A stretch of DNA of 64,000 nt from Cytophagales bacterium (GTDB taxonomy: Bacteria > Bacteroidota > Bacteroidia > Cytophagales > VRUD01). The notes beneath the pieces were generated by a model that searched no databases, was not told where the DNA came from, and saw only the letters and a list, made by a program, of their open reading frames with translations. Numbering within the stretch: position 1 is the first letter of the stretch; each line of letters begins with the position of its first letter. The position numbers and the translations under genes were made by a program. Below, piece by piece: positions 1,585 through 59,783 of this stretch. The stretch covers positions 1 to 64,000 of the forward strand of contig VRUD01000011.1 of NCBI GenBank assembly GCA_019456305.1, read 5' to 3'.

Positions 1585-3415
1585 ATGAAATCAATACAAG
1601 TTATTACGCTTATCCTTTTTACACTTCTTCTTGCATTTAACAGCTCATTGGGCCAGCAAAAAAGAACGTGTGGGACAATGGCATATCTGCAACAGCAAAA
1701 AGCTGCCGATCCTGGTCTTGAACAAAGAATGGCTCAAATTGAGCATCAAACTCAGCAATGGATACAAAGTCATGCAAACTTAAAAAATACAGGCATAGTC
1801 ATTACAATTCCTGTGGTTGTTCATGTTGTATATAACACGGCAGGCCAAAATATTTCAGATACACAAATTCAGTCTCAAATAGATGTTTTGAATGAAGATT
1901 TCAGGAGACTCAATGCAGATACTTCAAATACTCCCGTTGGTTTTCAGGGTGTAGCGGCAGATTGTGAGATAGAATTTTGCTTAGCACAACGCGACCCCTT
2001 CCGGGATTCCAACTACGGGTATTACAAGAACGCAAACAGCAAATACTTCATTTTCAGATGTTGCTAATGATGTTAAATTTAATTCAACAGGTGGGAAAGA
2101 TGCCTGGCCCAGGGATCAGTATCTTAACATTTGGGTATGTAAACTTGCAGGAGGTCTTTTAGGTTATGCTCAATTTCCGGGGGCTGGATCGGCTGCTACT
2201 GATGGTGTTGTGATTCTTTATTCTGCATTTGGTAAAGATGGCTCTGCCCAGGCACCTTATAATAAGGGGCAAACAACAACACACGAAATTGGCCACTGGC
2301 TGAATCTGAAACATATATGGGGAGATGAAAACTTATGTGCTTTAGATGATGGGGTGAATGATACTCCTCTACAAGAAGTAGCAACCTATGACTGCCCTAC
2401 TTTTCCTGTCACTGATACCTGTACAACTAACTTTCCAGGCATTATGTTTATGAATTATATGGACTACTCAAATGATGCCTGCATGAACATTTTTACTCAG
2501 GGACAAAAGACAAGAATGGTACTTACCTTAAACGGTTTCAGATCTTCGTTAAAAACTTCTCAGGGGTGTCAGCCTGGTAGTTGTGATACCTTGTTCTATG
2601 CCCCCTTGCCATCTTACTGGATAAACCCTACGGATGCAGGCAGCTTTGTTTTTAATACAGAGGATAACGATGGATTAACTCCACATCCAAATTTAATGGG
2701 TATGCCCACAACCTGGGTCACCATCTTTAATATAATAGCACCGGGAGACACTAACTTCATGCAGGGTGCCACTTCATGGTTTGACCCGGCAGGTCAGGCA
2801 GATAACTGGATTGAATTTGGACCCATCACAATACCTGCAGGAGGCGGTAAATTATCATGGCAGCATCTCATAGGTGATAATAATTGGAGAGATGGATACA
2901 GAGTTTTAATTACTACTACAGGTATGACGATAAATGACTTTACAACAAGTGGTGATACTTTGTTTAGTGTTACTGATAATGATCCTCAAACTGATGGTGA
3001 TACTATATGGACATCTCAATACGCGATTATTAATGGAGGAACTTTTGGCGGCCAGCAGGTTTATATAGCTTTCAATCATAATGCATACGATATGAATGTA
3101 TTGTACCTTGATAATTTTCTAGTGGATAATTGTCCAACAGTAGGAATAGCCAAAGAAACTTTTATTAATAATTCGGTTTCTATATATCCGAATCCATCTT
3201 CAGGAGTGTTTTTCTTAAGAACTGATCTTAAAAATGCAAATGAATTGAATGTATCGGTACTTAATATATTAGGGGGAATAGTTTATTCAAAAGAATATAA
3301 ACAAGCTCAAAACAATATTTACAAAATAGATTTAAGCAATAATCCTAAAGGTATCTATTTTGTAAGAATTAGTAATGACAAGTTTAGTGTAACAAAAAAG
3401 GTTGTGTTTTATTAG
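1585..3415 (+). pseudogene. Secreted M43 (pappalysin-type) metalloprotease, frameshifted, with T9SS sorting domain
   Basis: The gene lies in two frames. The first (1585-2067) gives a signal peptide ending in SLGQQ and the family's N-terminal part, up to EIEFCLAQRDP. The second continues (SGIPTTGITRTQT...) through the zinc site HEIGHWLNLKH (bases 2282-2314) and the Met-turn MNYMDY to a C-terminal T9SS sorting domain (SIYPNPSSGVF...) at 3415. Joining them needs loss of one base in the run GACCCCTTCC at about 1993-2002. The intact product would be an exported zinc protease of about 610 residues. The frame break could be a real mutation or a consensus error. Everything downstream of the break is intact, which suggests a recent mutation or an assembly error. 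Confidence 0.85.
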
Positions 3416-5637: not shown

Positions 5638-5746
5638 GTCCGATACTAATATACTAAATTTTTTCCAAGACTTCGCTTGTAAAAAAAGCCTTTCGGGGAA
5701 ATCTATTGTGAACGTACTAAATTACGTGTAAAGTCTTAGAAAAAAT

Positions 5747-5957
5747 TTAGTTATTGGTTTATTTAGTTAATAGTTTTAGTTAGTTGGTTACTGGTTTTGG
5801 TTAGTTAGTTTTATCGTCTCATAATTACAACCCAATATTGCTCAGGTTTTGAATTTGGATATTATTGTTTGCAAAATCAAAAACTAAAATAACTATTAAA
5901 CTAAAACTAATAACCAAAAAACCATAACAAATAAACCAACAAACTAAGAACTAAAAT
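5747..5957. repeat. Inverted pair of AGTTATTGGTTT arrays
   Basis: The left arm (about 5747-5815) repeats words such as TTAGTTATTGGTTTA and TTAGTTGGTTACTGG. The right arm (about 5880-5957) is the inverse (AACTAAAACTAATAACC). About 65 bp of unrelated sequence lies between them. The same family occurs at 15794-15961 and 40258-40394. With the next element it fills the 650-bp space before the aminopeptidase gene; I see no gene in it. Confidence 0.75.
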
Positions 5958-6034
5958 TACTTGAATTTCAAAAAAATCATCAATAATTATAGACAACATG
6001 TTGGTTATAATGCTCTTTTAAGAGCCTAATCACC

Positions 6035-15770: not shown

Positions 15771-16005
15771 TAATTTTGCGCTCATGCAGCACACTTTTTA
15801 GTTTTTGGTTGTTAGTTTTTGGTTATGGTTTGATAGTTTATGGTTATAGTTTTTTAGTTTGTTGGTCGTGCCATGAGTCCGGCATTAGCAAACTATTGAA
15901 CCAATGAACTAAAACTAATAACCAAATAACTAAAACTAATAACCAAAAACCATGAACTAAAATAAAGATCCATAACACATTATCCCGCAAAAAGGGAATT
16001 TTTAA
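15771..16005 (+). pseudogene. Duplicated and split 5' end of cysS
   Basis: TAATTTTG (15771-15778) and ATGCAGCACA (15784-15793) match the promoter and first codons of cysS (TAACTTTG, ATGCAGCATA). After a 168-bp array, sequence from 15962 (ATAAAGATCCATAACACATT) matches cysS codons 5 onward and would read KIHNTLSRKKGIFN, then stop, against [14 protein letters not shown] in cysS. So an old cysS start was duplicated, and one copy was split by the array and has decayed. Confidence 0.75.
15794..15961. repeat. Inverted pair of AGTTTTTGGTT arrays inside the cysS 5' duplicate
   Basis: The left arm repeats TTAGTTTTTGGTT words, and the right arm (from about 15885) the inverse AACTAAAACTAATAACC. A short CATGAGTCCGGCATT core lies between them. 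It interrupts the duplicated cysS start between codons 4 and 5. Confidence 0.75.
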
Positions 16006-16023
16006 TTAACATAGCATAATTTA

Positions 16024-16031
16024 TAACTTTG
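16024..16031 (+). promoter_or_regulatory. -7 promoter element of cysS
   Basis: TAACTTTG lies 6 bp before the cysS ATG, so the message would be nearly leaderless. The decayed duplicate has TAATTTTG at the same distance from its ATG. Confidence 0.5.
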
Positions 16032-16037
16032 TAGGCT

Positions 16038-17555
16038 ATGCAGCATAATATAAAGATCTACAACACACTTTCCCGTAAAAAAGAAACCTTTAAGCCCATC
16101 AATCCGCCTCTTGTTGGCATGTACGTCTGCGGGCCCACAGTATATGGAGATCCTCATCTGGGGCATGCCCGGCCCAGCATTACTTTCGATGTATTTTACA
16201 GGTATTTAAAGCATGTAGGTTATAAAGTAAGATATGTAAGAAATATTACCGATGTCGGGCATATGGAAGGTGATGCTGATGAAGGGGAAGACAAGGTCGC
16301 TAAAAAAGCCCGCCTCGAGCAATTAGAACCAATGGAAGTGGCACAATTATATACGGATCGCTTCCATGATATTATGCAAAAACTCAGTGTGCTTCCACCA
16401 ACCATAGAGCCACGCGCTTCAGGGCATATTATTGAGCAAATACAGATGACAGAAAAAATAATTAAGTTTGGTTTTGCCTATGAAGTAAATGGTTCAGTCT
16501 ATTTTGATTTGGAGAAATATGTGAAATCAAACCCGTATGGAAAACTTTCAGGCAGGGTGGTTGAAGACCTGTTAGCCGGTACAAGGAAACTGGAAGCACA
16601 ACAGGAGAAAAAAAGTCCCCTTGATTTTGCTCTCTGGAAAAAAGCCAACTCCGGTCATATCATGCAGTGGCCTTCACCCTGGAGTGACGGTTTTCCCGGG
16701 TGGCATTTGGAATGCTCTGTTATGAGCAGTAAATACTTAGGCGCCCCATTTGATATACACGGTGGAGGTTTAGACCTGTTATTCCCACATCACGAATGTG
16801 AAATTGCTCAATCGCGGGCAGCCAATAATACCGATCCTGTTAAATACTGGATGCATAATAATTTAATAACCATCAACGGACAAAAAATGGGGAAATCTCT
16901 GGGTAATTTTATTACTTTAGAACAGCTCTTTACAGGCAATCACGACCTATTGGAAGAAGCCTACAGCCCCATGACCATCCGGTTCTTTATTTTACAGTCA
17001 CATTACAGGGGGACTTTAGATTTTTCCAATAAAGCATTAAAAGGATCACGAAAAGGATTTATAAAGTTAATGAACGGGCTTAGAGTGCTGGAAAACTTGT
17101 CCCGAGCGGTAGTGAGGGAACCCCATTTTAGTACAAATGAAAAAAAACCTCATAAATCCGAAACACTTGATACAGAGATCAATCAAATCTGCGATGCCTG
17201 TTATGAAGCAATGAACGATGATTTCAACACTGCCAAAGTAATTGCCGCACTATTTGACCTGCTTAAGAAGATCAATGGCTTTTACCAGGAGAGCCTTGAT
17301 TTGTCACAAATTTCCAAGACGACCTTTGGGAAAATGAAAGATACATACAGAACTTTCGTTAATGATATCCTGGGTTTAACTGAAGAAAAACCTGACAGCT
17401 TTGATGCTATGCTTTCTCTTTTACTGAATATATATTGGGAGGCTAAACAAAATAAAAACTATGACAAAGTGGATGAAATAAGAGCACAGATGAAAAAACA
17501 AGGGATCATTCTCAAAGATTTAAAAGGTGGTGTTGATTGGGCGTATGAAGAATGA
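16038..17555 (+). CDS. cysS: Cysteine--tRNA ligase
   Basis: A class I aminoacyl-tRNA synthetase that charges tRNA-Cys. The HIGH-type motif is HLGHARP, preceded by the zinc-ligand region [11 protein letters not shown]. Further zinc ligands are in WHLECSVMS and FPHHECE, and the KMSKS motif is KMGKSLGN. The C-terminal helical domain is complete. At 505 residues it is normal for Bacteroidota. The start is chosen at ATG 16038, 6 bp after a -7 promoter element. A decayed copy of its first codons lies about 250 bp upstream. It ends at a TTGACA array. Confidence 0.96.
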
Positions 17556-29787: not shown

Positions 29788-29864
29788 AGTACGAAGTACG
29801 AATTCGTTACGCAGAGACGCCCAAATTGGGCGTCTCTGCGTGACGAATTCGTCATTCGTCATTT
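29788..29864. repeat. TACGAA arms around a 33-bp GACGCCCAA palindrome
   Basis: 29790-29808 has GTACGAAGTACGAATTCGT and the right side has ACGAATTCGTCATTCGTC. Between them 29809-29841 is a perfect palindrome with core GACGCCCAA. It fills the whole spacer between rpoA and rplQ. A transcript would fold into one long hairpin. Confidence 0.8.
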
Positions 29865-32777: not shown

Positions 32778-32801
32778 GTTAAGAAAATTTGAAAATGTGA
32801 T

Positions 32802-32867
32802 AATTTGGTAATTTGATCCGCAGAGACGCCCAATTTGGGCGTCTCTACGGATCAAATTACCAAATTA
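32802..32867. repeat. 66-bp near-perfect palindrome: AATTTGGTAATTTG arms around the GACGCCCAA core
   Basis: AATTTGGTAATTTGATCCG pairs with CGGATCAAATTACCAAATT, and between them is the core GAGACGCCCAA with its inverse. One mismatch is visible in the stem. It occupies the infA-rpmJ spacer. The arms differ from those of the 29788 element but the core is the same. Confidence 0.8.
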
Positions 32868-32886
32868 ACAAATCATCTATCAACTA

Positions 32887-39888: not shown

Positions 39889-40257
39889 TTATAGTACTTC
39901 AGGCGCTAAAGAAATAATTTTCATAAAATTTTTTTCACGTAATTCACGTGCAACAGGGCCAAAAATACGCGTACCTCTTGGCTCATCAGCCTGACCTAAT
40001 AAAACGGCTGCGTTATCATCAAACCTGATATAAGAGCCATCTTTTCTGCGAATCTCTTTTTTAGTTCTTACTACAACAGCTGTTGATATCGTGCCTTTTT
40101 TTAAATCACTGGTTGAAAGAGCAGATTTTACCGTAACAACGATCTTGTCGCCCACAGAAGCATATCTTTTGCGGGTTCCTCCCAAAACACGAATACAGAG
40201 CGCTTCTTTTGCCCCACTATTATCTGCGATTTTTAATCTTGATTCCTGCTGGATCAT
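39889..40257 (-). CDS. rplN: 50S ribosomal protein L14
   Basis: [21 protein letters not shown] is the L14 start; then [33 protein letters not shown] and [18 protein letters not shown]. 122 residues, invariant length for the family. It is separated from rpsQ by an AGTTATTGG array instead of the usual few bases. Confidence 0.97.
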
Positions 40258-40394
40258 TATTTAGTTTCTGGTTTTGAGTTTTTAGTTATAGTTATTTGGT
40301 TTTTGGTTTTAGTTTTTAGTTTACCAGTTAACTGAATAACTAAAACTAACAACAATTCAACTATAACTTTTAACTAACAAACCAATAACTGTTT
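40258..40394. repeat. Inverted pair of AGTTTTTAG/TTGGTTTT arrays between rpsQ and rplN
   Basis: Left: TTTAGTTTCTGGTTTTGAG and TTATAGTTATTTGGTTTTTG. Right: AATAACTAAAACTAACAAC and AACTAACAAACCAATAACTG. The arms meet without a long core. Same family as at 5747 and 15794. Confidence 0.75.
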
Positions 40395-45109: not shown

Positions 45110-46057
45110 TTATGTTTTCTCCTCTTTTTGATTTGCATCTTCGTTTTCAGCTTCAACCTCTTTTGATTTCCCCTCTTCTATATTATCATCCATTACTTTT
45201 GATCCTTTAACTTCTTCTTTAGCTTCATCTTTTACTTCCTCTTGAACTTCACCTTTTTCTTCTTCTTTAACTTCTCCTCCCATTTGCTTTGGTTCAGTTT
45301 TACCTTCCTCTTTAACTTCAGACTTTCCACTGGCAACTTCTATTTCGCTTGTTTTTTTCTCTTCTTTTATTTCAATATCTTCCCTTTGTAGAGACGTTGC
45401 ATGCAACGTCTCTACAAAGGAAACTCTTGATTCCTGATCTTTCTCCAGCAATACTATTGAATTTATTGCTCCCGGAATTGCACCACTTATCAATATTACA
45501 TTTTTATCAGGGATTATTTTTAAAACTTTTAGATTTTGAACTTTAACCCTTTCATTACCCATTCTGCCCCCCATACGTGTCCCCTTAAATACCCTTGAAG
45601 GGTCTGATCCGGCACCAATAGACCCGGCATGCCTTTGACGGTTGTGCTGTCCATGCGTCTTGCCACCAGATCCGTGAAAACCATGTCGTTTTACAACGCC
45701 CTGAAAACCCTTTCCCTTTGAAATACCAACCACATCAATAACTTCACCTTCTGAAAAGATCTTGTCAACGGAAAGCACCTCTCCTAACTTTACTTTCTTT
45801 TCAAAACTTTTAAACTCAACCAGTTTCCTTTTGGGCGTAGTTCCAGCTTTTTTGAAATGCCGCAATAAAGGCCTTGTAGTGTTTTTTTCTTTTTTATCTG
45901 CATAGGCAATCTGAACCGCCTGATAACCGTCTGTTTTGTCAGTCTTAACCTGCGTAACAACGCATGGCCCTGCTTCAACCAACGTACAGGGTAAATTTTT
46001 CCCCTCTTCATCAAATATGCTGGTCATTCCTATCTTTTTACCTATTAAGCCTGACAT
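45110..46057 (-). CDS. rplC: 50S ribosomal protein L3 with a 100-residue C-terminal extension
   Basis: The L3 core (about 1-208) has [40 protein letters not shown], and [21 protein letters not shown]. Other Bacteroidota L3 proteins end at about 205. Here a perfect 38-bp palindrome (45383-45420) follows, encoding [11 protein letters not shown], and then about 90 residues of Lys/Glu-rich low-complexity sequence. The extension is probably solvent-exposed and may come from loss of the original stop by repeat insertion. It has its own promoter after the rpsJ terminator. Confidence 0.93.
45383..45420. repeat. Perfect 38-bp palindrome inside the rplC reading frame
   Basis: CCTTTGTAGAGACGTTGCA followed by its exact inverse. 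The outer part GTAGAGACG resembles the GAGACG repeats at 29809, 32818 and 45090. It sits at codons about 213-225, where the normal L3 would end. Confidence 0.9.
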
Positions 46058-59387: not shown

Positions 59388-59783
59388 TTAATTCCTCCCT
59401 GCTTTTGTAACTAATCTGGCAATCATTTCTACGCTTTTCTGTAGTTTTAGATTTCCTTCAATCATACTTTCATGCATATTTTCAATGCCTTTCTGTAGTT
59501 TTAGATTTCCTTCAATCATACTTTTATGCATATTTTCAATGCCTTTCTGTAGTTTTAGATTTCCTTCAATCATACTTTCATGCATATTTTCAATGCCTTT
59601 TAGCAGCGTTGCAAAGCCCTTTTGCTGACCTTCTTCTATTTTTTCAAGCAGCGCTTCCTGCCGTACAAGCACCTTGCTGTTTTGCTTTCGTACATCCCAT
59701 ATAAACCATGAAATGGTAACTATTCCCGCAACAACAGTCATAAAACCTGCGACCATAGTGACGTAAGTAATTGTGTTTTCCAT
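59388..59783 (-). CDS. Membrane-anchored protein with 18-residue coiled-coil repeats
   Basis: 131 residues: one N-terminal span ([20 protein letters not shown]) and a helical region with three near-identical repeats of [18 protein letters not shown] (one has Lys for Glu). It lies between an inserted secreted fragment and rplL and has its own promoter match. It does not match a family I know; the form recalls small coiled-coil anchor proteins. Confidence 0.7.
59436..59597. repeat. Three tandem 54-bp repeats
   Basis: Units begin at 59436, 59490 and 59544 (TTTCTGTAGTTTTAGATTTC) and are almost identical at the DNA level. They encode the 18-residue coiled-coil repeats. The unit is a multiple of three, so copy number can change without a frameshift. 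Confidence 0.85.

Follow-up and report, generated by a model that had tools for sequence, protein, structure and literature searches.

The cysS locus and its upstream stub

In the window, by which we mean the whole stretch of 64,000 nucleotides that was analysed, the cysS gene for cysteinyl-tRNA synthetase lies on the plus strand at 16038..17555. The gene is intact (505 aa), occurs as a single copy in the genome (4.25 Mb in 159 contigs) and is preceded by a promoter-like box, TAACTTTG, at 16024..16031 (+). A second cysS start, made up of segments 15771-15796 and 15964-16009 on the same strand, is found upstream. Its left part contains the promoter-like box TAATTTTG (15771..15778), which aligns with TAACTTTG of cysS and which we take to be of the Bacteroidota -7 type (TAnnTTTG). 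The start itself (15784..15796) consists of ATGCAGCA, common to cysS, followed by CACTT, which may belong either to the stub or to the element that interrupts it. The right part (15964..16009) reads (L)KIHNTLSRKKGIFN and ends with a TAA stop codon; it falls in an ungapped 48-bp alignment of 15958-16005 with 16046-16093 showing 79% identity. The translation of the stub, MQH(TL or KI)KIHNTLSRKKGIFN*, amounts to about 19 codons, which were compared with the N-terminus of the functional enzyme.

The sequence-only reading of this DNA had proposed that the start of cysS is duplicated and that an array splits one of the copies. Removal of the array from the sequence produced an alignment between the stub and the real cysS start with a score of 67, the maximum in 2000 dinucleotide-model shuffles being 38; the duplication is thus upheld. 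The right part scores 48 by itself, a value reached by 0/2000 shuffles. The left part scores 22 (reached by 51/2000), modest as a score, yet collinear and containing the promoter-like box and the start codon. The split is equally real; what had been described as a 168-bp array turned out to be a repeated unit of 167 bp, at 15797-15963. A number of contigs terminate within the repeat (loci L047, L050, L051 and L053), as would be expected if the assembly had falsely joined two loci over a contig-breaking sequence. Such an artefact is very improbable here, since both flanks of the array are collinear and in frame with the same cysS start, which a false join would not give.

The two readings of the junction give 44/56 or 46/56 identical aligned positions between stub and cysS, that is, the two have diverged by about 20%. 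The substitutions are mainly synonymous (pS 0.58, pN 0.15), with a Fisher p of 0.006 in one junction reading and 0.017 in the other, although the numbers are low and part of the ratio could come from constraint acting on cysS only. Since the changes concentrate at synonymous sites, both copies may have been coding for a time. These comparisons suggest that the stub is the leftover of a once functional second or displaced cysS start rather than a fresh duplicate. One way in which it could have arisen is gene replacement, the cysS of a relative having displaced the native gene and left its first codons behind. The signs of coding evolution in both copies and the presence of just one full cysS speak for this origin, which is compatible with our preferred explanation and which we regard as a real possibility while not favouring it: 19 codons are too few for phylogenetic placement, and an ancient tandem duplication, of about 87 bp, would explain the stub equally well.

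No upstream copy beyond chance was found in roughly 100 relatives checked, Bacteroidota for the most part, whose cysS genes are at most 64% identical to the one studied here. The comparison covered 29 cysS loci and 80 contig loci, with a few that had too little upstream sequence left out; the source genome is the sole member of its family among the genomes compared. This result bears on the idea that the stub is a 5' leader retained for cysS regulation, with a duplicated promoter and a leader peptide, the array serving as a regulatory hairpin or terminator. The stub does have an open frame, with mainly synonymous changes, and retains its promoter-like box, and heptamer repeats beside start codons have been proposed to be regulatory in Beggiatoaceae (PMC4679880). 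However, besides the lack of an upstream copy in any relative checked, the sequence of the array recurs at 15 unrelated loci, and the array hence did not evolve for cysS. We consider a regulatory leader improbable.

A dispersed hairpin element

The element inserted in the stub has a core of 167 bp (15797..15963, TTTAGTTTTTGG...CCATGAACTAAAAT) in which inverted heptamer arms surround a centre, GTTGGTCGTGCCATGAGTCCGGCATTAG, at 15861..15888. The arms are built of degenerate heptamers, TTRGTTW on the left and the reverse complement (WAACYAA) on the right. Tandem periods are 14 and 21 in the element and 7, 14 and 21 among arrays of this class. As a single strand, the core folds into one long imperfect hairpin (z = -6.1). 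A search against Rfam returned nothing but sub-threshold microRNA-type hairpin matches, which were taken as chance.

At least 16 near-full copies of the core, the cysS copy included, lie at unrelated loci of the genome and are 93-100% identical. Thirteen have the exact 167-bp length, and 7 of these are identical to the letter. The earlier suggestion that such arrays move or get copied is therefore borne out by the dispersal of near-identical copies. The genome contains the centre motif 18 times, whereas a search of 394 other genomes of the class gave 0 occurrences; the core was not found in plasmid or phage collections. Short stretches of the arms match 23/147 other genomes of the order, the full element none. 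Judging from these sequence comparisons, the array is a lineage-specific mobile repeat that moved recently. Because the copies are identical, the insertion can be considered young.

Related arrays were seen elsewhere. One family with another centre has the same arm style, and the window holds two more inverted arrays (5680-6010 and 40200-40390) whose heptamers are of the same style but whose centres differ. Inverted heptamer arrays end a few bases from the start codons of neighbouring genes at C48 (L141 7972-8323), C59 (L144), C47 (L145) and C33 (L148); one such gene is probably pdxA, a name read from its first codons only. The window also contains a 54-bp tandem repeat (59436-59600; 3.1 copies, 98% matches).

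Junctions and target site

According to the reading of the junction, the interruption follows ATGCAGCA (15791) or ATGCAGCACACTT (15796), and the stub sequence continues from 15958 or 15964. In the first reading, the site is ATGCAGCACACTT(T)AAAGATCC, in frame with cysS and with 3 mismatches in 6 variable bases. In the second, the site is ATGCAGCA/TAAAATAAAGATCC, with 1 mismatch of 6; TAAAAT is then common to the target and the right end of the element, and CACTT comes from the element. The sequence ACACTTTTT at the cysS junction matches TTGACACTTTTTGG, the left end of the type-1 carrier described below. A target-site duplication was looked for at the array borders, as the sequence-only reading had advised; none was present under either junction reading, a result that rests on an approximate comparison, the empty site being a paralogue about 20% diverged. 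For the same reason the claim that the two starts give a before-and-after picture holds in part: the empty site is an approximation, not an exact one, and the junction is ambiguous by 5-6 bp.

Nor was a constant direct repeat found across the core copies. Some copies can be read with short direct repeats of 4-7 bp (ATGG, TTTTTGG) that coincide with carrier ends. A 5-bp duplication of AAAAT, which fits several copies, was discarded, as this sequence lies within the carrier itself (CAAAATA...CTAAAAT) and the fit fails at cysS.

These data allow weighing the possibility that a DDE transposase mobilised the element as an ordinary IS-derived MITE and that decay has since hidden short target duplications. 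Other palindromic families of this genome do behave in such a manner: two families resembling MITEs, characterised by CCCCGCACATAAAT and CCCCGTTAGA ends, have TNA-type duplications of 3 bp and paralogous empty sites (L143:15949, L149:1867, L226:18640), so that several mechanisms coexist in the genome. Moreover, the core copy at C96 (L158:10375), whose paralogous empty site is in C42 (L142), is associated with a direct repeat of 10 bp (TTGGTAWAAT); at 223 bp, the piece inserted there exceeds the core. Against these observations, the seven identical copies differ in their left and right ends and share no common duplication, the cysS copy has none, and a partner IS with these ends is absent from the assembly. 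A DDE-type origin thus appears unlikely.

Carrier ends and transposase genes

Some copies (L042 and L044) sit inside a larger element with the left end ...TCTGACAAGTTTTGGCAAAATA and the right end TTTGGTTCTGGCTACGCCAGGTTAG. The ends of this carrier are ...TTTTGGCAAAATA on the left (LE) and TTTGGTTCTGGCTACGCCAG[C/G]TTAG on the right (RE). Carriers with related ends but a different inverted array, composed of GGCAGTC/GACTGCC units, were found at C20, C22, C82, C30, C44, C17 and C59. An intact empty carrier was sought with the pattern GGCAAAATTTTGG and gave no exact match.

Outward from the core, 0-42 bp of LE and 0-25 bp of RE are retained, in a graded manner among copies; in the seven identical copies, the retained portions shrink to just 0-13 bp and 0-10 bp. 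Carrier ends are thus borne by the more diverged, presumably older copies, the identical ones being without them. This pattern argues against a fixed-end transposase as the agent of the latest spread and would be consistent with an agent that acts by recognising or copying the hairpin.

The genome has seven loci for Y1 transposases, five IS200-like and two RAYT-like as judged by length. Neither the array nor the carrier ends were found near any of the seven. A genome-wide search of the ends revealed no autonomous element or IS between LE and RE in the assembly.

Relationship to known repeats

The element is short, multicopy, non-coding and able to form a hairpin, as MITEs are (167 bp, 16+ near-full copies, z = -6.1). 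No fixed-length target duplication accompanies it, either at cysS or as a constant feature across copies, and its ends are ragged, without the constant terminal inverted repeats that would link it to an autonomous IS; the genome-wide search between LE and RE gave no such IS.

Like the REP/REPIN sequences associated with RAYT (TnpA-REP) transposases, it is a multicopy palindrome of mostly intergenic location. REPs are 20-40 bp long and bear a GTAG (or CGTC) tag. In contrast, the core described here spans 167 bp and has the ends TTTAG.../...CTAAAAT, with neither tag, and none of the seven Y1 transposase loci displays a RAYT gene flanked by the repeat. With the non-autonomous elements of the IS200/IS605 type, the carrier shares a right-end hairpin, CTGGC-TAC-GCCAG, followed by (C/G)TTAG, and insertion without target duplication. 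The core copies differ from these elements in having no fixed ends, and their left flanks share no set tetranucleotide at the cut across all copies, a comparison that concerned the core and not the carrier.

The 7-bp periodicity of the units recalls the STRRs of cyanobacteria, which are heptamer repeats likewise. TAACTGA heptamer repeats occur in Beggiatoaceae, Cyanobacteria and Bacteroidetes (PMC4679880); as here (TTRGTTW/WAACYAA), known repeats of this kind are degenerate 7-bp units in intergenic DNA, with several arrays adjoining start codons. Those repeats (PMC4679880; STRRs) are, however, direct and of undemonstrated mobility, whereas here two arrays face each other around a fixed centre, form a hairpin and are dispersed.

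A likeness in architecture, with no claim of a sequence relation, is to the BrickBuilt MITE of Porphyromonas gingivalis (PMC4596501), a member of the same phylum. BrickBuilt has 19 copies with a repeat array inside a leader and a tail; several copies are without leader, tail or both, target duplications are inconsistent and the location is intergenic. It differs in being made of 23-nt direct repeats with short TIRs, where our element has inverted heptamer arms in one hairpin; no 23-nt tandem direct repeat was found between leader and tail, the periods being 14 and 21 in inverted arms. The element thus resembles BrickBuilt MITEs and REPs and fully fits neither definition. It is a mobile hairpin repeat of the REP/MITE type, a variant rather than a new category.

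Some REPs are known to sit within other palindromes (PMC3733652). Local repeat surveys, which spanned 1.15-1.56 Mb of the 4.25-Mb genome, found the sampled DNA to be rich in palindromic repeats, often nested. Hairpins of the CCTGCC type are precisely inserted, without target duplication, in loops belonging to other hairpins, which also occur elsewhere as empty sites. An element with a GGCAGTC array lies inside a CCCGAGTACTCGGG palindrome in C40 at about position 3280 (L288), again with no target duplication. Long locus-specific palindromic arms of at least 14 bp surround the GACGTTGCATGCAACGTC and GACGCCCAAWTTGGGCGTC centres in 5/8 and 7/22 cases, respectively. Within the initial 1.15 Mb, 7/7 and 9/16 of these centres, respectively, had complementary bases in 11 or more of 14 flanking pairs, as against 0.3% of random positions. 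Nested palindromes, in which short common palindromes form the apices of locus-specific arms well in excess of chance, were recorded at L147:8941, L218:7189 and L214:13506, and in the window at 29791-29859, 32795-32873 and 45380-45424.

Discussion

We propose that the array is a lineage-specific, non-autonomous palindromic repeat that was recently inserted into an old cysS stub and left the functional cysS uninterrupted, its spread being presumably guided by the hairpin. The probability of this explanation may be put at about 0.72. The first event would have been an old duplication yielding a second cysS start, with a promoter-like box and about 19 codons. The element would then have entered this stub recently, and by chance, with neither a target duplication nor any visible loss of target sequence. 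The functional gene downstream, with its own promoter-like box, would never have been interrupted. This order follows from the ages of the two components: the stub, about 20% diverged, is old and the identical copies are young.

The same disparity in age argues against the proposal that a duplicated start allowed the cell to keep cysS once the array had entered. The split copy comprises just 19 codons, ends at a stop of its own and is not followed by the body of a cysS gene. Being already unable to make the enzyme when the element arrived, it called for no rescue, and it was probably already useless at that time.

As for the mechanism, the unit being copied would be the hairpin itself. At first it probably travelled as part of a larger carrier whose ends were defined, and the latest copies may have spread alone through hairpin-guided insertion. 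The agent could be a single-strand transposase of the Y1/HUH type acting in trans; alternatively, template switching at microhomology during replication might generate such copies. We offer, as a tentative and rather doubtful extension, that inverted heptamer hairpins in general spread as structures and not as end-defined transposons, with ragged ends, without target duplication, often at the apices of existing palindromes, and with cassettes swapped between carriers having the same ends. Such a process would produce nested palindromes throughout the genome.

For cysS itself, no functional consequence is expected. Both heptamer arrays and palindromic repeats occur widely among Bacteroidota and Cyanobacteria. 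In the present genome, identical copies at unrelated sites point to recent spread, and the old coding stub, taken as an approximate empty site, speaks against a classic target-duplicating transposase. Since young copies have lost their carrier ends to varying degrees, the spread of hairpins on their own becomes a testable idea.
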